Made by a program: the position numbers and the translations under genes. Below, in pieces: positions 4,732-20,817 of a stretch of 23,344 bases of DNA (positions are counted from its first letter, which is position 1; each line of letters starts with the position of its first letter). The stretch comes from a virus. The stretch spans positions 1-23,344 of the IMG/VR virus record IMGVR_UViG_3300045453_000089. One strand, written 5' to 3'. Under the pieces are notes generated by a model. That model saw only the letters and a program-made list of their open reading frames with translations, was not told the origin of the DNA and ran no database searches.

Positions 4732-6126
4732 ATGCAATCCCCCTCACTCCGCCGCCATTGCGAGCGGCGGCTGGCGGCGCTCGACCGCGAGCGTTCGTCG
4801 TGGTTCGCGCACTGGCGCGAGCTCAGCGAATACATCCTGCCGCGTCGCGGCGCCTTCATCGGCGCGACGGCGCGCAGCAACCGCGGTGCCAAGCAGAACG
4901 GCAAGCTTCTCGACTCCACGGCCATGCTGGCCGCCCGCACCATGGCCTCGGGCCTGATGGCGGGCGTCACCTCGCCGACGCGGCCGTGGTTCCGCCTCGG
5001 CCTCGGCAGCCCGACGATCTCGGCGATCCCCGAGGTGCGTGCCTGGCTGGACGACGTGACGGCGCGCATGTTCCGCGTCTTCGCCCGGTCCAACCTCTAC
5101 AGCGCGCTGGCCGTCGCCTACGAGGAACTGGGCGTGTTCGGCACCGCCGCCGTGGTCGTGGTCGAGGACGCGAAGGAGGTCGTGCGCGCCTATCCGCTGA
5201 CCGTGGGCGAATACTGGCTGGGCGCGTCGGAGCGGCTGACCGTCAACACGCTCTACCGCTCGCTCGCCATGACGACCTTCCAGCTCGTCGAGCGCTTCGG
5301 CCGCGACGCCGTCTCCATACAGGTGCGCGAGCGCCACGATCGCGGCGAGTGGGACCACGAGGTCGAGGTGGTCCACTGCGTCGAGCCCAATCCCGACGCG
5401 GCGCCCTACGGCCGGTTCGGCCGCTTCCGCGAGGACATGCCGTTCCGCTCGGTCTGGTTCGAGAAGGCGGGCGCCGGCGAGGCCCTGCTCGACGTCGGCG
5501 GCTTCGAGGAGTTCCCGGCCTTCTGCCCGCGCTGGCACCTGATCGGCAACGACGTCTACGGCCGCTCGCCCGGCATGGACGCGCTGCCCGACGCCAAGAG
5601 CCTGCAGCGCATGCAGCAGAGGTTCGCCGAGGCGCTCGACAAGATGGTCCACCCGCCGCTGGTCGCGCCGCCCTCGATGCGCGGCGAGCGGGCCAGCCAG
5701 AAGCCGGGCACCATCACCTATGTGGCCGACACGACGGGGCAGGCGCTGCGCCCGGCCTACGACGTGAAGGTGCCGCTCGACCAGATGACGGCGGCCATCC
5801 GCGACCGCCAGCAGGCGGTGCGCGCGGCCTTCTATGCCGACCTGTTCCTGATGGCGACCCAGCTCGAGGAGGTGCGCAGCGCCACCGAGATCGCCGAGCG
5901 CCGCGAGGAGAAGCTGGTCATGCTGGGGCCGGTGCTGGAGCGTCTGCACGATGACCTGCTGGAGCCGCTGATCGGCCGGGTGTTCCAGATCATGTGCCGC
6001 AACGGCTACATCCCGCCGCCGCCGTTCGAGGAGCTGGACGGGATGAAGCTGCAGCCGGAATACGAGTCACCGATGGCGGCGATGCAGGTGGGGGTGTATT
6101 CGCGCGCTCTTGCCATGCCGCAATAG
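4732..6126 (+). CDS. portal (head-tail connector) protein, C-terminally truncated
   Basis: This 464-residue protein has the pattern of podovirus head-tail connector proteins. It begins with SLRRHCERRLAALDRERSSWFAHWRELSEYILPRRG, with SGLMAGVTSPTRPWFRL and LGVFGTAAVVVVED in the first third. A late segment reads ATQLEEVRSATEIAERREEKLVMLGPVLERL. The portal forms the dodecameric DNA channel at one capsid vertex. The start has AAGGA at 4721-4725. Family members I know continue well past the last recognisable part (LQPEYESPMAA), usually to over 520 residues. Here the frame turns into YSRALAMPQ and stops, exactly where GC content falls and cargo begins. The missing end was not found elsewhere in the window. 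Confidence 0.85.
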   Translation: MQSPSLRRHCERRLAALDRERSSWFAHWRELSEYILPRRGAFIGATARSNRGAKQNGKLLDSTAMLAARTMASGLMAGVTSPTRPWFRLGLGSPTISAIPEVRAWLDDVTARMFRVFARSNLYSALAVAYEELGVFGTAAVVVVEDAKEVVRAYPLTVGEYWLGASERLTVNTLYRSLAMTTFQLVERFGRDAVSIQVRERHDRGEWDHEVEVVHCVEPNPDAAPYGRFGRFREDMPFRSVWFEKAGAGEALLDVGGFEEFPAFCPRWHLIGNDVYGRSPGMDALPDAKSLQRMQQRFAEALDKMVHPPLVAPPSMRGERASQKPGTITYVADTTGQALRPAYDVKVPLDQMTAAIRDRQQAVRAAFYADLFLMATQLEEVRSATEIAERREEKLVMLGPVLERLHDDLLEPLIGRVFQIMCRNGYIPPPPFEELDGMKLQPEYESPMAAMQVGVYSRALAMPQ

Positions 6127-6974: not shown

Positions 6975-7032
6975 TTATCCGCAGAAACGAGTTGCAGATT
7001 CAGCAGGAATAGGCTAGGAAAAAACCTACACT
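6975..7032 (+). promoter_or_regulatory. repeated 58-bp leader module, copy B
   Basis: Second copy with the same internal spacing. The box is TTATCCGCA at 6975-6983 (one base off the DnaA consensus), followed by nine bases, then TGCAGATTCAGCAGGAATAG from 6993, one base different from copies A and D, and TACACT at 7027-7032. The hairpin follows 23 bases later, as in copy D. Confidence 0.6.
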
Positions 7033-7055
7033 GAAGATTGATGTATCGACGCCCT

Positions 7056-7110
7056 GCCCGGGGTTCCGCCTCAGATGCTGAGAGGCCGGAGCCGCCGGGC
7101 CTTTTCATTT
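7056..7110 (+). terminator. leader hairpin copy B
   Basis: GCCCGG (7056-7061) pairs with CCGGGC (7095-7100). Inside it, GGTTCCG pairs with CGGAGCC, and a distal CTCAG/CTGAG stem closes a short loop. CTTTTCATTT follows. The stem is about 18 base pairs with a bulge, in the form of a strong intrinsic terminator. It matches the hairpin at 8323 in 53 of 57 positions. Confidence 0.65.
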
Positions 7111-7208
7111 GGGCGTGCATCGGCCAGGTCCGAGGCATGAAATGTTCATCGGCGACCTCGGAACCGGCTCCTGGGAAGCTCGTTCAGTTATTTCGAATGA
7201 TTCGGTTA

Positions 7209-7263: not shown

Positions 7264-7719
7264 ATGCCCCTCGATGGATCCCTTTCAGAGCGGCTCCCGA
7301 CGCGCGACGAAGCTGACAAGGCCAAGAAGGCAATCGCCACTCTTGCGGGGCAAACCGACAAGCAGGGGGCTCTCGTATTGCGTCTGGCGCCGGGTGGTGA
7401 AGCTTCCCGGGTCGAATTGCCGCCCGCGGTGAGCAAGCTGGTGCTCGATCTGCTTTTGCTGGTCAGCAAGGGCGAGGCGGTGACGCTCGTGCCGTTCGGG
7501 GCAGAGCTCTCCACCCAGGAAGCGGCGGATTTGCTGAACGTGTCCCGTCCGTTTCTCGTCAAGCTGATCGAGGAGGGCGAAATTCCCCACTTCAAGGTGG
7601 GAACTCACCGCCGGATCAAGGCCGAGGATTTGTTCAAGTACAAGCGTCGTCGCGACAAGATCCGTCACGATGCCCTGAACAAGCTCGCCTTGCTCGGCCA
7701 GGAAATCGACGCCGAATGA
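7264..7719 (+). CDS. antitoxin, excisionase-type HTH DNA-binding protein
   Basis: This 151-residue protein has a MerR/excisionase-like helix-turn-helix at residues 82-127: LSTQEAADLLNVSRPFLVKL, a short wing with GTHRRI, then a basic helix FKYKRRRDK. This architecture is common in antitoxins paired with PIN-domain toxins. The N-terminal part (residues 1-80) is helical and probably mediates dimerisation or toxin binding. The start has AGGAGAG six bases upstream. The stop overlaps the ATG of the next gene by four bases (ATGA), so the two proteins are translationally coupled. It probably represses its own operon by binding near the TATATACGTA promoter region. GC is lower than in the virion genes. 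Confidence 0.8.
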   Translation: MPLDGSLSERLPTRDEADKAKKAIATLAGQTDKQGALVLRLAPGGEASRVELPPAVSKLVLDLLLLVSKGEAVTLVPFGAELSTQEAADLLNVSRPFLVKLIEEGEIPHFKVGTHRRIKAEDLFKYKRRRDKIRHDALNKLALLGQEIDAE

Positions 7720-8294
7720 GGCATGTCGCCGATCGCTTCACGGCGATGCTCGATGCGAACGTCCTGTATCCCTTCCTGGTGCGGGACGTCTTGCTGTCAC
7801 TCGCAGAAGCCGGGCTCTATCGCCCTGTCTGGACAGCGGAAATCAATGCCGAATGGTCGGAGAATCTGATTGCCGCGAAGCCCGAACGGGAAGCTGCGAT
7901 CAAGGCGACGATCGAAGCAATGAACGCGGCCTTTCCGGAGGCAACGACAACTGGCTACGAAGATCTGATCTCCTCCCTCTCGCTTCCCGATGCTAACGAT
8001 CGACATGTCCTCGCTGCTGCAATCCGGAGCGGCGCGAGTGTCATCGTCACCGAAAACCTGAAGGATTTTCCGCCCGACATATTGGCCAAATACGACATCG
8101 AGACGCGTTCTGCCGATGAATTCGTCCTCAATACGTTCGAGCTTTATCCGACGGACGCGCTGCATGCCCTGAGGACGATGCGCGCACGCTACCACAAGCC
8201 TCCGGTGACGCCGGCCGAGCTGATCCAGCGAATGCTGAAGGTGGGGCTGATTGCGACCGTTGCGGCGCTTCAAGGGTACGAAGACTCGATCTAG
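7716..8294 (+). CDS. PIN-domain toxin (ribonuclease)
   Basis: This 192-residue protein has a PIN domain with the expected acidic residues. D13 lies in MLDANVLYP, a glutamate in TAEINAEWSENL (E42 or E46) is next, and D92/D95 lie in LPDANDRHVLAAAI. The typical IVTENLKDFP strand follows at residues 110-119. Such proteins are metal-dependent RNases, and with the preceding HTH protein this forms a toxin-antitoxin pair. The C-terminal 60 residues (PTDALHALRTMRARYHKPPVTPAELIQRM) match the longer PIN_3-type members. Start and overlap are fixed by the ATGA junction at 7716. The module is flanked by two copies of the phage leader hairpin, which marks it as an insertion. Confidence 0.85.
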   Translation: MRHVADRFTAMLDANVLYPFLVRDVLLSLAEAGLYRPVWTAEINAEWSENLIAAKPEREAAIKATIEAMNAAFPEATTTGYEDLISSLSLPDANDRHVLAAAIRSGASVIVTENLKDFPPDILAKYDIETRSADEFVLNTFELYPTDALHALRTMRARYHKPPVTPAELIQRMLKVGLIATVAALQGYEDSI

Positions 8295-8322
8295 GGACCG
8301 GCTTCGCACAACCACCACCCCC

Positions 8323-8377
8323 GCCCGGGGCTCCGCCTCACACACTGAGAGGCCGGAGCCGCCGGGCCTTTTCATTT
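8323..8377 (+). terminator. leader hairpin copy C, directly before the Bbp19 gene
   Basis: GCCCGG (8323-8328) pairs with CCGGGC (8362-8367), with an inner GGCTCCG/CGGAGCC stem and a CTCA/TGAG tip, then CTTTTCATTT. No 58-bp promoter module lies upstream, because the toxin-antitoxin pair occupies that place. The ribosome binding site GGAGAA of the next gene begins at 8378, right after the T-rich tail. Confidence 0.6.
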
Positions 8378-8388
8378 GGAGAACCTGC

Positions 8389-8712
8389 ATGACCGACCAG
8401 GCTGCCGGCTACGATGCCGGCGATCGCGCCCACGTGTCCGAGCGCCAGAAGAAACGGCGGCTGCGCGCCGAGCGCGCCGACGCCGATCTCCTCTGGCTGA
8501 TGAACCAGCGCGAGGGACGGCGCTTCGTGGCGCGCCTGCTGCAGAGCTGCCACCTCTACGAGTCGAGCTTCACCGGCCCTGGAAGCTCCAGGAGCGCCAC
8601 CTTCTTCCGCGAGGGCGAGCGCAATGTCGGCCTGCGGGTGCTGGCCGACATCACGCGCCTCTGCCCCGATCTCCATGCCCGCATGCTGGGCGATTCGCAG
8701 GACGAGACCTGA
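8389..8712 (+). CDS. Bbp19 family phage protein
   Basis: This 107-residue protein is recognised by the string DLLWLMNQREGRRFVARLLQ, then YESSFTG and FFREGERNVGLRVLADI. These match the small Bbp19-type proteins encoded next to portal and capsid genes in BPP-1-like podoviruses. Their exact role is not settled; a place in head assembly is usually assumed from gene position. The ATG at 8389 has GGAGAA at 8378-8383, five bases upstream. An extra insert (PGSSRSA) splits the usual SSFTG-to-TFF junction. The next gene begins one base after the stop. Confidence 0.85.
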   Translation: MTDQAAGYDAGDRAHVSERQKKRRLRAERADADLLWLMNQREGRRFVARLLQSCHLYESSFTGPGSSRSATFFREGERNVGLRVLADITRLCPDLHARMLGDSQDET

Positions 8713-8713
8713 C

Positions 8714-10321
8714 ATGGCGAGCGTGATCCATCCGACTGTGCCGGTGGCAGGGTCAGCGGCGGAGCCGTGGCCATCTGGCGTCAAGGATGGCGATGAAGTG
8801 ACGATCCGCGCCGACGAGATGTTTGCGCGCAAGCTCGACACCGAGTTCGCAACCGGCGTGCGTGGCCTGCTGCACAGCCCCAAGACGGGCCTTTCCTCTC
8901 TCGAGGGAGAAGCGGCCCTCGAAGCCATCGCCGGCATCTATCCGGCGCTGGAGGAACTGAGGCAGCGCACCCTCGGCGAAGCTATCGGCCCGCGCCAGCG
9001 CGTGCTGGTGGAGCCCGCGATCAATGCCCGCCTCGACTGGGCCGCCGGCACGATCGGTCGCCTGGCCGAGCGCGCCACGGTCGAGGTCGACGACGCCAGC
9101 GTGGCCGAGCGGCTTGCCGGACTGCGGCAGGATGCCGAGATCTCTTGGCACGACCCGGCCTGGCTGCGGCAACTCGGCCGCACCACAGTGAGCGAGCTGC
9201 GCGGGCAGGGCGAACGCCGTGGCTGGAATGACGCCGAGACCGACACGCGGGCGAGAGCAGGCCTTTCCGACCTCTATGCCGGCGCGGTCGAGGCCGCGAT
9301 CGGGCGCGACCCCGACGGCGCAGTCAACCTGCTGGCGCACGCCCGCGAGGCGATCGATCCGGCGCGACTGAAGACGATCGACCGCTCTCTCGCCCGCGCC
9401 CGCGAGAACGGCTTCCTGCGGGAGGTCGATGCCGCCTTGAGCGCACTGCCACTCGATCCCACGACACCGCCGGCCCTCGACGTCTTCACCGCCCGCACGA
9501 CGGAGCTGACACCGGAAGACGCGACCGACGAAGTGCGTGGGCGCCTCGGCGAGCTAGCGTCGCACGCCCAGCGTCGCGCCGAGCGGCAGTGGCACCGGCG
9601 CCAGGCCGAGGCCGGCATCGCCGCCCTCGACTGGCTGAAGCAGAACCCCGATGCCTCGTCGCTGTTCCGGCCGGAGGAGGTGCGCGAGTGGCTGGCGCCG
9701 GACCAGCTCGACGGGCTCAGGACGATGGAGCAGCGGGGTCGCTTCCTCACCGACCCCGACCTGTTCTGGCGTCTAGAGCGGTTGTCCGTCTACGAACCCG
9801 AGGCCTTCGCTGCGCTCGATCTCGACCGCCATCGCCTGTCGCTCGACGATGCGGATCACGCCCGCCTCGTCGGATGGCAGAAGGCCATCGCCGAGGACGC
9901 GGCCGATCCCGCCTTTGCCTGCCACCTCTGGGCACGGATCGGCCTCGATCGCGCCCTCCAAGAACGAGGCATCAGCACCGAGAGCCCCGACGCGGCGGAC
10001 ATCCGCATCGAGATGGGCGACCTCCTCGACAGCACCGAAGCCGTCGAGGGCCATTCCGCAACCGGTGACGACATCGACGCGATCGTGACGCGGCCCACCG
10101 ATCCGGCCGCACCAGACGGCAAACATGTAGTTCCGGTCGCAGCGGGCGACTTGAAGTGCGTGGGCGGTAGTTGCGCCAGTGGCGGAAGCTGGGGAACTAC
10201 GGGCATGTACTACATTGAGGGTAAGACCCTCTGCCGGAGTTGTGCCGTCAAGCAGCTCGGCATGGAAAACAGTCCGGCAGACGAGCTGATCAGGACGCTG
10301 GAGCCATTCGAGAAGCGGTAG
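8714..10321 (+). CDS. large helical virion protein with Cys-rich C-terminal module
   Basis: This 535-residue protein starts one base after the Bbp19 stop. Residues 30-450 are almost entirely helical and include VRGLLHSPKTGLSSLEGEAALEA and SDLYAGAVEAAIGRDPDGAVNLLAHARE. That layout is shared by large podoviral virion proteins thought to sit inside the head or be ejected with DNA. From about residue 475 the character changes: GC falls and a compact module appears with C482-x4-C487 and C507-x2-C510, followed by AVKQLGMENSP. This could bind a metal. The change of character suggests the original C-terminus was replaced; the displaced end may be the frame at 10797-11432. Assignment as an internal virion or ejection protein is an inference from position and composition. 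Confidence 0.6.
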   Translation: MASVIHPTVPVAGSAAEPWPSGVKDGDEVTIRADEMFARKLDTEFATGVRGLLHSPKTGLSSLEGEAALEAIAGIYPALEELRQRTLGEAIGPRQRVLVEPAINARLDWAAGTIGRLAERATVEVDDASVAERLAGLRQDAEISWHDPAWLRQLGRTTVSELRGQGERRGWNDAETDTRARAGLSDLYAGAVEAAIGRDPDGAVNLLAHAREAIDPARLKTIDRSLARARENGFLREVDAALSALPLDPTTPPALDVFTARTTELTPEDATDEVRGRLGELASHAQRRAERQWHRRQAEAGIAALDWLKQNPDASSLFRPEEVREWLAPDQLDGLRTMEQRGRFLTDPDLFWRLERLSVYEPEAFAALDLDRHRLSLDDADHARLVGWQKAIAEDAADPAFACHLWARIGLDRALQERGISTESPDAADIRIEMGDLLDSTEAVEGHSATGDDIDAIVTRPTDPAAPDGKHVVPVAAGDLKCVGGSCASGGSWGTTGMYYIEGKTLCRSCAVKQLGMENSPADELIRTLEPFEKR

Positions 10322-10922: not shown

Positions 10923-11432
10923 ATGCGGCGCGAGGTCTATCGATCCCATCGGGAGGCCTTGGAGAGGCTGGAACCCAACAATCCGTTCCTGACGTCCGTC
11001 GGCGCACCCGGTGGAATACCCGATCGGGCGGCGATGGTCCGACTTCACCAGGAACTGCAGGCGGCGAGGGCCCGGGCCGCGGGCGGTCCGCTCCCCGCGT
11101 CAGGCGGATCGCTCACCGCGTCGGGCGACGGGCCGGGGCTTCCCGGGGGCGGCAGGCTGGAGCGGGCTCTGGGCATTCCAAAGGACTGGCGCGTGATCAT
11201 GTCGGACAAGGGCGGCGGCGTGACCTACATCAATCCCAACAACCCGAACGATCGCATAAGGGTCATGCCCGGCAATCCCGACGGTCAATACCCGCATCAA
11301 CGTCGCCCATACGTGGTTGGTCAGAGCTGGGGCGCATATGTAAACCGGGACGGCAGGCCGCTCGGTGGGGCGGATCCAAGACGCCATCCAGACGCGCACA
11401 TTCCCTACGACGCTTATGTCTTCTGGAGATAG
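10923..11432 (+). CDS. orphan polymorphic-toxin-like C-terminal domain
   Basis: This 169-residue product from the first ATG has two parts. Residues 1-75 are a helical and Gly/Ser-rich linker (LQAARARAAGGPLPASGGS). Residues 80-169 form a compact domain with YINPNNPNDRIRVMPGNP (102-119), RRPYV (127-131) and HPDAHIP (155-161). The MPGNP, PYV and DAHIP series is one I associate with C-terminal toxin domains of polymorphic (CDI/Rhs-type) toxins, possibly the type 17 group; the family name is from memory and unverified. The ATG at 10923 has a GAGG only two bases away, so independent translation looks weak. A small gene with a good ribosome binding site follows three bases after the stop, the usual toxin/immunity layout. 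Confidence 0.55.
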   Translation: MRREVYRSHREALERLEPNNPFLTSVGAPGGIPDRAAMVRLHQELQAARARAAGGPLPASGGSLTASGDGPGLPGGGRLERALGIPKDWRVIMSDKGGGVTYINPNNPNDRIRVMPGNPDGQYPHQRRPYVVGQSWGAYVNRDGRPLGGADPRRHPDAHIPYDAYVFWR

Positions 11433-11435
11433 AAC

Positions 11436-11789
11436 ATGCCGTTCATCAAAAAGATCTGGCTCAGGAATGCGTGCAGTGTCCTCGATGCGATCGCCGATCG
11501 AAGCGTCTTGCATGATGCCTGGTCGGGGAAGAGCGACTATCCGACCTCGCCCGAGGAAATCTATAATGAAGTCTTCAGCGACGCGGTCGTCGACGAGTAC
11601 GCCGATCCCGACCTCGAACTCGACGAGGCGCAGAAGGCGGCGGGCAAGACCTTCGTCGACAGCATGCGACAGTTCGACGAGATCGGCGGCCCCGAGCTGC
11701 CGTGGCAGGAGGTGATCGACCATCCCGGCTGGGTGAAGGTGCGCGAGGCGGCGCGGACGTTCCTCGACCTGCTGCGCCCGGCTGCCTGA
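11436..11789 (+). CDS. putative immunity protein for the toxin-like domain
   Basis: This 117-residue acidic protein starts three bases after the toxin-like frame, with GGAGA at 11425-11429 inside that frame's last codons. It is helical and rich in Asp/Glu (EEIYNEVFSDAVVDEYADPD) and ends WVKVREAARTFLDLLRPAA. Small size, acidity, tight coupling and position after a toxin-like C-terminus fit an immunity protein that neutralises a nuclease-type toxin. No named immunity family is recognised. It is followed by leader module copy D, so the toxin/immunity pair closes a transcription block. Confidence 0.5.
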   Translation: MPFIKKIWLRNACSVLDAIADRSVLHDAWSGKSDYPTSPEEIYNEVFSDAVVDEYADPDLELDEAQKAAGKTFVDSMRQFDEIGGPELPWQEVIDHPGWVKVREAARTFLDLLRPAA

Positions 11790-11842
11790 TCGTCGAAGTC
11801 GCCATCGGAACGCCCCTTCGGTGATAGGAAAGATTCTTCGAC

Positions 11843-11900
11843 TTATCCACAGATTCGAGTTGCAGGTTCAGCAGGAATAGGCTAGGAAATTAACTATACT
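11843..11900 (+). promoter_or_regulatory. repeated 58-bp leader module, copy D
   Basis: Third copy: TTATCCACA at 11843-11851, nine bases, then TGCAGGTTCAGCAGGAATAG from 11861 (identical to copy A), then TATACT at 11895-11900, the best -10 hexamer of the three. GATAGGA lies 20 bases before the box, as in copy A. It precedes the scaffold-capsid block. Confidence 0.6.
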
Positions 11901-11923
11901 TCCGACCATAGCGTCGGCGCCCC

Positions 11924-11973
11924 GCCCGGGGCTCCTGCCTCGAAGCATCGAGGCCGGAGCCGCCGGGCTTTTT
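11924..11973 (+). terminator. leader hairpin copy D
   Basis: GCCCGG (11924-11929) pairs with CCGGGC (11963-11968), with an inner GGCTCC/GGAGCC stem and a distal CCTCG/CGAGG stem, followed by five T residues (11969-11973). The distal stem differs from copies B and C but keeps pairing. The scaffold gene begins 60 bases further on. Confidence 0.7.
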
Positions 11974-15803: not shown

Positions 15804-16499
15804 AACCTGTAGTGGATGGATCGGATCATCTTCGAGCAGGCGCGCGCGTCCCGGAAACGGTGAAAGCGGAATATTTTGCCGAGCCGTCGGCCGTGCCAGT
15901 CCGAGGTGGTCGGCGAAGTCAGTTCGCTGCAGCGTGCCGGGCAGCATGTCGACATAGGCTGGGTGAAGATACCTGAGGAGCATATTCTGGAGGTCGTTCC
16001 TGCCGATCTAAAAGACGGCGCGGCGCAGTGCGGCAGGACCTTGCCCAAGGGAGCAACGTGTCCGACGGCGCCAGCCGGAGAAGCGTTCGCCGCCGCATTC
16101 ACCGGAATGCGGAACTTGCGTTGCTGGCGCCGGTGCGGATGGCGAAGGCGTCGGCGCTGACGCAGATCGGCACGCTCGCGGTCCATTCGTGGCCCGACGC
16201 CTTGTCCTGCGCGTCGAGGGATAACTGCGGTACAGCATCAGACCGGGCCAGAGAAAGGCGCAGGCCTGCGGCGGCAGCCAATACCTGCCTCCCAAGATGA
16301 CGATCGGAGCGGGGCCGTCGTGTTGGCGCCGGTCCTCGTGCCGAGGCGTCGCTCGCAAAGCCAGTGACCTCGAAGGCGCGGACCGGGATGCGGCAGTCAC
16401 GTGAGCGATGACACGCGCGTAGTGAAGCGCAGACTTTGAGGGCCAAACCTGAAAGCGGGCGGACAAGGCGGCGGTGATCCTGCGCCGCCGCGATGCTGC
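15804..16499. other. 700 bp without a supported gene
   Basis: Several open frames overlap here on both strands, but none has a convincing start, ribosome binding site or known pattern. The minus strand carries fragments such as LLRYLHPAYVDMLPGTLQRT, and the plus strand carries EVVGEVSSLQRAGQHVDIGW in the same place, so neither can be preferred. It may be a decayed minus-strand gene brought in with the membrane-protein cargo. Near the right end, GGCGGCG (16467-16473) can pair with CGCCGCC (16483-16489) just upstream of the tail tubular protein B-like gene, but no T tract follows. Confidence 0.45.
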
Positions 16500-16517: not shown

Positions 16518-19040
16518 ATGCCTGTTCCGATGATCCAGCCAAGCTTTGCCGCGGGCGAGATTTCGCCGGCGCTTCACGGCCGTGTCGATCTCGCCAAGTA
16601 TCAGGTCGGCTTAGCAACCTGCCGAAATTGGTTCGTCCACCCGTTCGGCGGGGTCAGCACGCGCGCGGGTACCGCCTTTGTGGGGGAGGCCGTCGACTCT
16701 TCGGTGCGTTCGCGCTTGGTGCCGTTCCAGTTCAGTGCGATGGAGACCTACGTGCTGGAGTTCGCGCACCGGAAGATGCGCGTTATATCGGCCGGTTCCG
16801 GAGGAACTGCCGAGGATGGTGGCTATGTCCTCGAGACAGCAGTTCCGATAGCCAACATCGTCAACGCGACAACAGGCCTAGTGACGACGGCAGCGCCGCA
16901 CGGCTTTGCCGCCGGTGACCATGTCTGGATCGATGGCGTGCAAGGCATGCTCGAGATCAATCGCTGCCGCTTCACCGTGGCGGCTGCGACTGCCACTTCA
17001 TTTCAGCTCGCCGGCACCGACACCTCGATGTGGAACACCTGGAGTGGAGGCGGAACCGTGGCCCGCCTTTATACACTCGCCACGCCCTATGCCGGCTCCG
17101 ATCTCGCGTTGCTTAAGTATGTGCAGTCGGCGGATACGATGACGCTCACCCATCCCGGCTATGCGCCGCGCAATCTGACTCGCACTGGGCATACGGCCTG
17201 GAGCCTGGCGACCATCGACTTCGCTCCCGAGGTCGCCGCACCAACGGGGCTGGCCAGTTCCAATCCGGGCAGCGCCCAGAGTTACGTCCTGACAGCGGTG
17301 AACGACGAGACCGGCGAGGAGAGCCTTGCCAGCTCTGGAGTCGGTGCCGCTGACGCGCTCTCAGCCATTACTTTTTCGCCAGTTGTAGGCTGCACCTACT
17401 ACAACGTCTACAAACGGAGAAACGGAATCTACGGCTTCATCGGTCGCGTGAGATCCGGCAGCGCCTTCGCGGACAGCAATATCGCTCCCGATACGTCGGA
17501 CACGCCGCCGCAGCAACGCAATCCCTTCGTAGGGGCTGGCGACTGGCCCGGTTGCTCCACTTGGCACGACGGTAGGCAATGGTTCGCGCGCACTGACAAG
17601 GGCCCGCAGACCCTGTGGGCGAGTCAGTCCGCGAATTTCCGGAACATGAGCGTGTCGGAGCCGACTCGCGACTCTGATGCGATCACGCGCACCATCGCCA
17701 GCCGCGAGGTCAACGAAATCCGCTTTCTCCTGAGCCTCAACGCGCTTTTGGTCTTCACCTCTGGAGGGGAGTGGAAGTGCTGGGCCGGCAGCCAATCTGA
17801 TGTCATCACACCGGCCAATACGGCGCTGAAGCCGCAGGGCTACTCGGGCATCGCGCATGTGCCGCCAATCGTTAGCGGCAATTCAGCGCTGTTCGTCACG
17901 TCATCGGGCAGGAAGGTGCGCAATATTTCCTACGATCTAGGGGCCGACGCCTGGGCGGGCCGCGATGTCGGAATTCTTTCCGGCCATCTCTTCGAAGGGC
18001 GGCAGATCGAAGAGTGGGCATATGCCCGCGACCCCGACTCGATCGTGTGGTGCGTTCGCTCAGACGGCGTGCTGCTGGGCTTCACCTATTTGAAGGAGCA
18101 CGACGTTTACGCCTGGTCGCACCATATTACCGACGGTGCCGTCGAGAGCGTGTGTGCAATCCAGGAGCGAAACGAGACGGCGCTTTACCTTCTCGTGCGT
18201 CGTATCGTCGGGAACAGGGCCGTTCGTCATGTCGAACGCATGGCCTCGCGCCAGTGGGATGGAAATCCCGCCGACGTCCGGTCGGCGTGGTGCGTCGATT
18301 CGGGTGTTCGCTATGACGGCTGGAACGCAGACCCGGCGCGTACGATCGCGATGACGGGCACGGACTGGCAGGCCGGTGCCACCGTCGGCCTGACGGCCAG
18401 CGGTCATGCACCTTTCGTCGCCGTCAGCGAAGGTCAAAAGTACATCCTGCGCAATGGTGGCTTCGAGATCGCGGTAACCGTCGTCTCCGCCGCCGATGCC
18501 GAGCACGCTTCCGCGACGCTAGACGCGGCAGCCCCTAGGGAGATGCAAAACGTCGTCGTGGCGGACTGGGCGTTAGCAACTTCGACCCTTCGAGGGCTCT
18601 GGCATCTTGAGGGGCGGTCACTCGCTGTCGTTGCCGACGGCTCAGTACAGCCCGTGGCGACCGTGACTGAGGGCAGTGTCACGATTCCCCAGACGGCCGG
18701 GCGGATTCTGGCTGGTCTCCCCTATGTTTGTGACCTTGAAACCCTTGATCTGGAGGGCGACCCGCCGACGCTGCAAGGCCGCACGAAGCGTGTTCAGGAA
18801 GTCGCGCTGCGTGTACGGCTGAGCCGTGGTCTCAGCGTTGGCCCCAGTGCGGATCGCTTGGTTGAGATCAAGGAACGGTCGGTCGAACCGCCCGGCACGC
18901 CGACAGTGCTGGCGACGGGCGACGAGCGTGTGCTGGTGGACCCGTCGTGGAATGCCGACGGCCGGGTCTTCGTCCGTCAGGCCTTTCCGCTGCCGGCAAC
19001 GATCGTGGCCGTCATGCCGCGCCTCGAGGCTGGCGAATGA
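16518..19040 (+). CDS. tail tubular protein B-like (tail nozzle/hub)
   Basis: This 840-residue protein begins PMIQPSFAAGEISPALHGRV, then LATCRNWFVHPFGGVSTRAGTAFV, the standard opening of podoviral tail hub or nozzle proteins (T7 gp12-like). A beta-sandwich-like insert at about residues 240-325 (PTGLASSNPGSAQSYVLTAV to YYNVYKRRNGIYGF) looks like an Ig/fibronectin-type domain. It is followed by beta-propeller-like sequence (STWHDGRQWFARTDKGPQTL, then FTSGGEWKCWAGS). The start has GAGGAG at 16507-16512; ATG 16500 lies upstream of that site. The stop overlaps the next start (ATGA at 19037). Confidence 0.8.
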   Translation: MPVPMIQPSFAAGEISPALHGRVDLAKYQVGLATCRNWFVHPFGGVSTRAGTAFVGEAVDSSVRSRLVPFQFSAMETYVLEFAHRKMRVISAGSGGTAEDGGYVLETAVPIANIVNATTGLVTTAAPHGFAAGDHVWIDGVQGMLEINRCRFTVAAATATSFQLAGTDTSMWNTWSGGGTVARLYTLATPYAGSDLALLKYVQSADTMTLTHPGYAPRNLTRTGHTAWSLATIDFAPEVAAPTGLASSNPGSAQSYVLTAVNDETGEESLASSGVGAADALSAITFSPVVGCTYYNVYKRRNGIYGFIGRVRSGSAFADSNIAPDTSDTPPQQRNPFVGAGDWPGCSTWHDGRQWFARTDKGPQTLWASQSANFRNMSVSEPTRDSDAITRTIASREVNEIRFLLSLNALLVFTSGGEWKCWAGSQSDVITPANTALKPQGYSGIAHVPPIVSGNSALFVTSSGRKVRNISYDLGADAWAGRDVGILSGHLFEGRQIEEWAYARDPDSIVWCVRSDGVLLGFTYLKEHDVYAWSHHITDGAVESVCAIQERNETALYLLVRRIVGNRAVRHVERMASRQWDGNPADVRSAWCVDSGVRYDGWNADPARTIAMTGTDWQAGATVGLTASGHAPFVAVSEGQKYILRNGGFEIAVTVVSAADAEHASATLDAAAPREMQNVVVADWALATSTLRGLWHLEGRSLAVVADGSVQPVATVTEGSVTIPQTAGRILAGLPYVCDLETLDLEGDPPTLQGRTKRVQEVALRVRLSRGLSVGPSADRLVEIKERSVEPPGTPTVLATGDERVLVDPSWNADGRVFVRQAFPLPATIVAVMPRLEAGE

Positions 19041-19517
19041 CCGGCAGAATCGAGATGGGGATGGGGGTCGAGATCGCGACCGCGACTCGGGCGGATGTCT
19101 ACTCGCTCCTGCCCGCCCTGCGGCAGGCAGACATCGACGAGATTCGCACGGCATCGGGTCTGACGCCGGAGGCCGGCCTGCATAGGTCCTTCGCGCTCAG
19201 TACCCACGTGTGGGCCGCCCGGGAGGATCGGACCGCGGCGATCGCGCTGTGGGGGGGGGGGCCCGCTGTCGCTGAGTGCGGGCAAAGGGTGCCCCTGGCT
19301 GCTGGCTTCGGCGAGCTTCGATCGCCGCATTCGGCAGGTCGTCAGCCTGTCGCGACCGATGCTCGCCCGCATGCGCGCGGCCTATCCGCAGCTCGAGAAC
19401 CATGTCGATGCCCGCAACCGCCGGGCCCTCCGCTGGCTCGGCTGGCTGGGATTCACCATCGAGGCGCCGGCACCCTGGGGTGTCGAAGGCCGTCCCTTCC
19501 ATCGTTTCTGGATGTGA
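19037..19517 (+). pseudogene. T7 gp13/DUF2833-like virion protein, frameshifted at a poly-G tract
   Basis: The gene starts in an ATGA overlap with the tail tubular B-like gene. The first frame reads ADIDEIRTASGLTPEAGLHR up to ALWGGGP. After a run of 11 G at 19251-19261 the matching sequence lies one frame on: PLSLSAGKGCPWLLASASF, then LENHVDARNRRALRWLGWLGF and GRPFHRFWM to a TGA at 19515-19517. The joined product is about 160 residues. It has the GNAT-like pattern of T7 gp13-type internal virion proteins (PWLLAS, NHVDARN, RWLxxLGF). One G fewer, or two more, restores the frame. It may be a real slippage site or a sequencing error. Confidence 0.75.
19251..19261 (+). repeat. 11-G homopolymer inside the gp13-like gene
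   Basis: There are eleven consecutive G bases after GCGCTGT. With ten, the downstream coding frame continues. This is a classic slippage-prone tract and the longest homopolymer I noticed in the window. Confidence 0.9.
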
Positions 19518-19534
19518 TTGCCAGGGAGATCTCC

Positions 19535-20817
19535 ATGTCCCTCACCACGACGACCAACAAGATCGTCTACCAAGGCAATGGATCCACCACGGAGTGGCCT
19601 TCGCCTTCCCCGTTCTCGATGCGAGCCACCTCGACGTCATCGTCACCGATGCCGACGGTCACGAAACCAGCCTTTCGGCGAGCGCCTACGGCGTCAGCGG
19701 CATCGGCGCGCCGACCGGTGGGGCGGTGACATATCCGTTGGCTGGTGCGCCCCTCGCGACGGGCACGAAGCTCACCATCGTCCGGACGGTGCCCTACACG
19801 CAGACCACCGTGCTTTCTAATCAGGGCGGCTACTATCCCGAAGTCGTTGAGCGCCGCCTCGACGAAATCTACATGGCGTTGCAGCAGCTCGAGGAACGGG
19901 TCGGCCGCGCGAGCCTCTACGCGATCAGCGATCCGGCCACGGAGCAGAGCAACCTCGCCCTGATCCAGCAGCTTCAGGCCATGAACCTGCTCGACACGCA
20001 GGGCGATCTCCTGACCCATGACGGGTCGGCGTATCGGCGGCTGGCACGCGGCGGCGCGACCCAGGTCCTCGGCGGCGGCACCGAGCTCGTGTGGCGCGAC
20101 ATGGTGATGCCGGCCATGCACATCCACGGGCTGACCTACTCGCGGAGTGCCGCCAATGCGATCGACATCGCGGCGGGTGGGGCCATGTCGGAGGATGGTA
20201 CCGCGTGGCTGGCCTGGCCCGGCGGGACAGCGATCGCCATCGATGAAGGCTTCGGCGCGGGCGCCGGCGCGCTCGACACCGGCGCGATCGCCAATGGCGA
20301 TTACTGGATCCACTTGGTCAGACACGATGGCACCGGCGCCGTGAAGCCGCTGGTGTCGCTGTCGCGCACCGCCCCGACGATGCCGGCGGGCTGGACGAAG
20401 AGGCGGCTGATCGGCTGGCTGCGGCGCACGTCGGGAACCATCGTGGATTTCCACACGGCCGAGCTGACGGGCGGCGGCCTGTCCTTCGAATGGAAGCCGC
20501 CGGCCCTGGACGTGAATGCCGCGCTCGGGACGTCCACCCGGACCGACACGATCAGGGTGCCGGTCGGGATCGCCGTCAGGGCCCATGTCGCGGTCACGGT
20601 CGGCGGCGTCGGCAATGCCATCTTCGGCCAGGTCTGGAACCCCGATGCCGGACCTCCGGGCACCTTCAACGTGAGCTGCTGCGCCAACAACGGCTGGCAT
20701 CAGGGCCACGATCTCTGGCTGTTCACCAGTGCGGGCGGCCAGCTCTCAGGCGCCTGCAACTACAACACGTCGCAGTACTACATCAGCACGCTCGGCTTCG
20801 AGCTGCCGCGGAGGTAG
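19535..20817 (+). CDS. tail fibre protein, frameshifted near the N-terminus
   Basis: The start MSLTTTTNKIVYQGNGSTTEW has GGAG at 19525-19528. At GG 19596-19597 the frame breaks, and the rest continues one frame over as FAFPVLDASHLDVIVTDADG to the stop at 20817. One extra G would join them (TEWAFAFPV). The joined product is about 427 residues. Its first 130 residues are the T7 gp17-type virion-attachment domain, ending in the coiled-coil-like EVVERRLDEIYMALQQLEER. The C-terminal part has Gly-rich beta repeats (AIDIAAGGAMSEDGTAWLAW) and ends in WKPPALDVNA to TLGFELPRR, likely the receptor-binding tip. No C-type-lectin variable region or template repeat is seen, unlike the BPP-1 tropism determinant. 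Confidence 0.75.

Follow-up and report, generated by a model that had tools for sequence, protein, structure and literature searches.

The virus record IMGVR_UViG_3300045453_000089 (23,344 bases, classed as linear), analyzed here over its full length and referred to as the window, contains a run of 11 G residues at which the frame of a virion gene changes. This locus raises the question of whether such a run is a reversible switch, a slippage site, the mark of a very recent gene loss, or an error in the assembled sequence. The original prediction, made from the DNA alone, envisaged on/off particles or two protein isoforms and named an assembly error at the homopolymer as the main rival. The features concerned are collected in Table 1.

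Table 1 Positions in the window of the two interrupted genes and of the sites at which their frames change
Feature	Positions	Strand	Evidence
gp13-like N part, frame 2; ATG at 19037 overlapping the gp12 end	19037..19261	+	phrog_308 profile 3-62, E 1e-7; 50-60% identity to L017-L020, L026
G11 run; frame of homology changes here	19251..19261	+	Sequence; absent at the equivalent codons in 38/38 covering relative loci
gp13-like C part, frame 3, includes stop	19254..19517	+	phrog_308 profile 70-148, E 9.2e-23; 62-71% identity to L017-L020
Tail-fibre gene, first 22 codons, frame 2	19535..19600	+	tblastn to relatives with continuous frame
Second break within short C and T runs; one base short of the relatives	19593..19606	+	Junction DNA versus 12 relatives; tblastn
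Tail-fibre remainder, frame 1	19600..20817	+	PHROG tail and tail-fibre families; ORF 19276-20817

The gp13-type gene and its surroundings

The window encodes packaging, head, tail, and lysis functions of the epsilon15/BPP-1-like podovirus type. The C half of its gp13 is 62-71% identical to four loci, L017-L020, from metagenome-assembled genomes whose titles name Reyranella or Alphaproteobacteria. The gp12 match ends at position 19037, which is also the start of gp13, and the order of the two genes is the same as in epsilon15. The N and C parts of gp13 match consecutive stretches of the phrog_308 profile (151 positions) in different frames and are, therefore, one gene in two frames, as was originally proposed. 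The phrog_308 family is annotated as internal virion protein, and the epsilon15 record also names it an acetyltransferase. Judged by its sequence and by its position directly after a gp12-type tail gene, the broken gene is an epsilon15-type gp13 and an ordinary member of phrog_308. The likeness to T7 gp13/DUF2833 that had been put forward stands as regards the identity of the gene as a gp13; the link to T7 is weak, and no Pfam gp13/DUF2833 model was matched by either piece (E up to 1) or by three intact relatives (E up to 0.01).

A structure prediction for gp13 of L018 from an alignment of 26 relatives gave a mean pLDDT of 94.9 and a pTM of 0.86. The top PDB matches of this model were GNAT acetyltransferases, e.g., SpeG (E 2e-8, TM-score 0.69 by query length), and gp13 is thus predicted to have a GNAT-like fold. 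The residues of the tract map to strand 61-71 within the single predicted domain of the model so that a protein ending at the tract would be half a fold. The GNAT fold accounts for the gene, not for the tract.

Several other observations concern the surroundings of gp13. Between gp11 and gp12, L017, L018, and L020 share with the window a conserved stretch (16132-16319); its best reading is on the minus strand, and it has no Rfam match. A scan of the window for RNA features found neither a tRNA nor, at gathering scores, an Rfam match. The portal ORF (window 4732-6126; also L067 3454-4848 and L195-L198) ends approximately 100 amino acids short of the 24 other portals examined (22 of 80 portal loci plus L021 and L024). 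The six ORFs of this short-portal lineage end 15-28 amino acids past a common motif, and their tails and the DNA that follows differ. The missing C-terminal part was convincingly found by profile search nowhere in the window, L067, L147, or L017-L020. A shortened portal that is conserved may point to a domesticated element. The genomes G059 and G065 contain seven and six portal-like matches, respectively, some of them short or in pieces, and G065 has its best portal on one contig and its capsid gene on another. In L018 (3238-8582) both the capsid gene and gp12 are in pieces, some of them inverted, as in a rearranged prophage or a misassembly.

A repeat of approximately 60 bases (7052-7112, 8319-8379, and 11920-11973), made up of a GC-rich hairpin-like stretch followed by T, is located at gene-block boundaries. 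A short stretch of L067 also matches the window at 1371-1422, 6975-7029, and 11841-11889. The repeat copies at 7052-7112 and 8319-8379 flank a likely toxin-antitoxin pair (7264-8294; HTH_17 and PIN_3 domains) that separates the shortened portal from the next head gene. The ORF at 8624-10321 (565 amino acids) shows ~26-31% identity to large ORFs located 3' of gp13 in L022 and is followed on its own 3' side by two small ORFs (10923-11789) without firm family matches.

The G run and its site in relatives

The 11 G residues are present in the sequence as described, preceded by a T and followed by CCC. They form the sole G or C run of at least seven in the window, the next longest being six. The run-length distribution of the window itself predicts 0.015 runs of G and 0.009 runs of C with 11 or more bases. 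When the codons of 12 further genes of the window (10,305 bases) were shuffled, a G or C run of 11 arose in 17 of 2000 trials. A chance origin of the run is unlikely, although the excess is weaker when counted as 8-G words (four observed against a mean of 1.53; four or more in 9 of 100 dinucleotide shuffles). The tract encodes glycine in place of a near-invariant valine codon. As to the claim of one G too many, the surplus base was borne out; the alignment is compatible with its placement in the G run as well as in the adjoining C run.

The tract was looked for in related phages at 43 loci (L002-L044), and a G run longer than six was present at the site in none of the 38 loci that cover it: in close relatives, the tract is neither kept nor varied in length. 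The 38 rows represent 37 contigs (L012 and L044 are on the same one), L013-L016 look alike, and the site is outside coverage in L002, the second gp13 copy of L022, L031, L032, L036, and L040. The nearest relatives read TGG GGC GTC GGG CCG or near variants, encoding W-G-V-G-P. At the position following the invariant glycine, a count by eye over the 26 aligned rows gave V in 22, L in two, I in one, D in one, and G in none. A stop within the hit is absent from 33 of the 38 covering rows; the five hits with a stop (L009, L010, L019, L025, and L026) all start upstream of the query gene's start codon, and L019, L025, and L026 are open from their own starts.

Among 75 genomes from the family of the L020 genome, 48 gave gp13 matches, 68 in total and all without an internal stop; several of these are partial, such that breaks beyond the matched part would escape, and the set includes the genomes of L017-L020, L022, and L024. 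Ordinary codons occupy the site in the six gp13 matches at least 74% identical to L018 (L018 included). A tract common to the lineage was rejected, as the 38 covering loci and the six matches nearest to L018 are without it. Its absence in relatives is not decisive on its own because, in what is reported for Campylobacter, homologues can also lack tracts (PMC6321876).

Across L002-L044, which partly overlap and add up to 420,288 bases, runs of at least eight G or C occur only twice, as a C11 in L020 and a C8 in L043, both off-site. The C11 of L020 (7165-7175) lies upstream, by ~76 bases, of the segment aligning with the start of gp12 and is the sole G11/C11 run in a 5.2-Mb genome. Runs of 11 number 2, 1, 0, and 1 in four close host-type genomes (~19.2 Mb), none of which is the window's own host; these genomes are, thus, not enriched in such tracts. 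Genome G005 (L045, L060, and L063) contains 59 overlapping 11-G positions, and several of its runs, 13-14 G in length, adjoin scaffold gaps or a contig end. These look like assembly artefacts, and their location indicates that poly-G artefacts do enter such assemblies. When a second copy of the phage was sought, an exact 22-base right-flank pattern had no match in the viral contigs, a collection from which near-identical records were possibly omitted, and the 17 matches to a left-flank pattern of 17 bases had 4 or 5 G with a different sequence beyond them.

A second break and the constraint on both genes

The tail-fibre gene contains a second one-base frame break, ~340 bases downstream of the G tract, which was absent from the original prediction. 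The two fibre parts form one continuous frame in relatives such as L017-L020 and L026. This break is not at a long repeat, and a contingency tract fails to explain it. The other conserved genes of the window have no comparable break.

Differences were counted separately for each gene part, and pN was divided by the L017-L020 value. Between the window and L017 or L020, respectively, pN of the gp13 C half is 0.20 or 0.23 and pS 0.52 or 0.47; pN of the fibre part is 0.14 or 0.135. The resulting pN ratios were 1.9 for the gp13 C half, 1.55 for the gp13 N half, and 1.4 for the fibre, and 1.8, 2.15, and 1.1-2.2 for the intact capsid gene, gp11, and nine blocks of gp12, respectively; a Bbp16 comparison with L017 was dropped, being misplaced with 14-15 codons aligned. 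All 10 residues that are invariant after the tract in alignment A2 are kept in the gp13 C half, as judged by eye. The pN/pS of this half is 0.36-0.59 in comparisons with the window versus 0.13-0.49 among five relatives, which may reflect slight relaxation or merely the outgroup place of the window. Both halves of gp13 and the fibre are constrained like the intact neighbours. Hence, the breaks either arose very recently, can be reversed, or do not exist, and the locus is not an old pseudogene.

Explanations and known systems

The leading explanation, to which we give slightly less than an even chance, is that the change of frame at the G run reflects a consensus error in a metagenome-derived contig, in a locally poor stretch with a second one-base error in the fibre gene. 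The real gene would then be a single intact gp13 frame, as in the relatives. Such an error agrees with the constraint, with the loss of the valine codon, and with two one-base breaks lying close together; a point in its favour is that the two breaks, in adjacent genes, involve one surplus base and one base fewer. The run, both breaks, their absence in relatives, and the constraint on both halves are observed; the reading of the breaks as errors rather than mutations is our inference. In contigs of 10x Illumina metagenomes, ~1% of proteins are reported to have homopolymer errors and ~3% any single-base error (PMC3277595), and GGC followed by GC-rich triplets has been associated with strand-specific Illumina errors (PMC3431227). 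As a counterpoint, short homopolymers are described as generally read correctly by MiSeq and GGC errors as a minor fraction (PMC3431227; PMC3277595). Two errors in ~12 genes would, moreover, be uncommon at published rates unless coverage was low. The homopolymer error has thus moved from main rival to leading explanation.

Close behind, and nearly as likely, is a real inactivation: both frameshifts would be genuine and very recent, gp13 and the fibre having just been lost in a partly eroded prophage without any switch. It is a close rival because related prophages carry genuine-looking broken genes. The capsid gene of L018 is in two pieces on opposite strands, gp12 of L019 and of L024 is in two ORFs, and scattered portal fragments occur in two related genomes. 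Also in line with inactivation, no integrase or repressor was recognized among the window proteins scanned (a subset of the ORFs), and the pN/pS of the gp13 C half could indicate slight relaxation. However, given a constraint as in the intact neighbours, both mutations would need to be very young, and both would have to fall within ~340 bases while longer genes stay open.

Phase variation, in which replication slippage would alter the length of the G run and turn gp13 on and off to give particles with or without the protein, is unlikely. With 11 G in the coding strand of an ORF, the run is within the range of known contingency tracts; of those reported for Campylobacter, lengths of 9 and 10 are the commonest and 11 is less so (PMC6321876). 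The constraint on the C half is compatible with a reversible state, and the related prophage L020 has its single C11 run elsewhere. Against this stand the private nature of the run (0 of 38 covering relatives), the rarity of such runs in close host-type genomes, the near-invariant valine removed by it, the fibre break left unexplained, and the failure to find a second phage copy with the two flank patterns. The on/off switch of the original prediction is, thus, not supported.

That ribosomes or the polymerase slip on the G tract and so yield two isoforms from one gene, in the way that T7 makes two capsid forms via frameshifting, is highly improbable. The tract is a possible slippery site, but the C half requires +1 or -2; in the -1 frame, a stop comes after a few codons instead of a continuation into the homologous C half, and two isoforms from a -1 slip of the ribosome would not work. 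The relatives do not conserve the site, and the short form would, according to the model, be half a fold.

The case is mostly one of caution on striking homopolymers in metagenome phage records. Such a homopolymer can be tested without reads by means of the same codons in relatives, further nearby breaks, and the constraint beyond the break; here, the relatives and the nearby break argue against a switch, and the constraint excludes an old pseudogene. If mixed tract lengths were true, this would be a phase-variable virion gene worth further work. Among the titles listed in literature searches of partial coverage, none concerned a phage virion gene switched by poly-G. There is a slim chance that the poly-G run is a genuine contingency tract, reversible and located in a virion gene of a prophage, in which case lysogens would release mixed particles with and without a GNAT-like internal virion protein.

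Poly-G tracts inside ORFs are reported to drive phase variation in Campylobacter (PMC6321876) and Neisseria (PMC5953494). The window tract resembles these contingency tracts in being a long coding-strand G run inside an ORF, and its length would fit. It was not grouped with them because it is unshared by relatives, the close host-type genomes are not rich in tracts, and no length variation was seen here; the second break, moreover, has no tract. With gp13 of phage T7, the window gene shares its place after gp12 and a weak profile match (116 columns, probability 49.9, E 1.6e-4), whereas it lacks a Pfam gp13/DUF2833 match. In one account of the Salmonella phage epsilon15, the ejection proteins are numbered differently from the annotated record, gp13 being there a protein of 708 amino acids (PMC8954989). 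In epsilon15, gp13 is one open frame and is followed by gp14-gp16, whereas in the window it is broken and followed by a tail fibre. The C half of the window gene is 47.1% identical to epsilon15 gp13 over 87/87 residues, the place after gp12 is the same, and the GNAT-like fold predicted for a relative of the window gp13 adds to this likeness.
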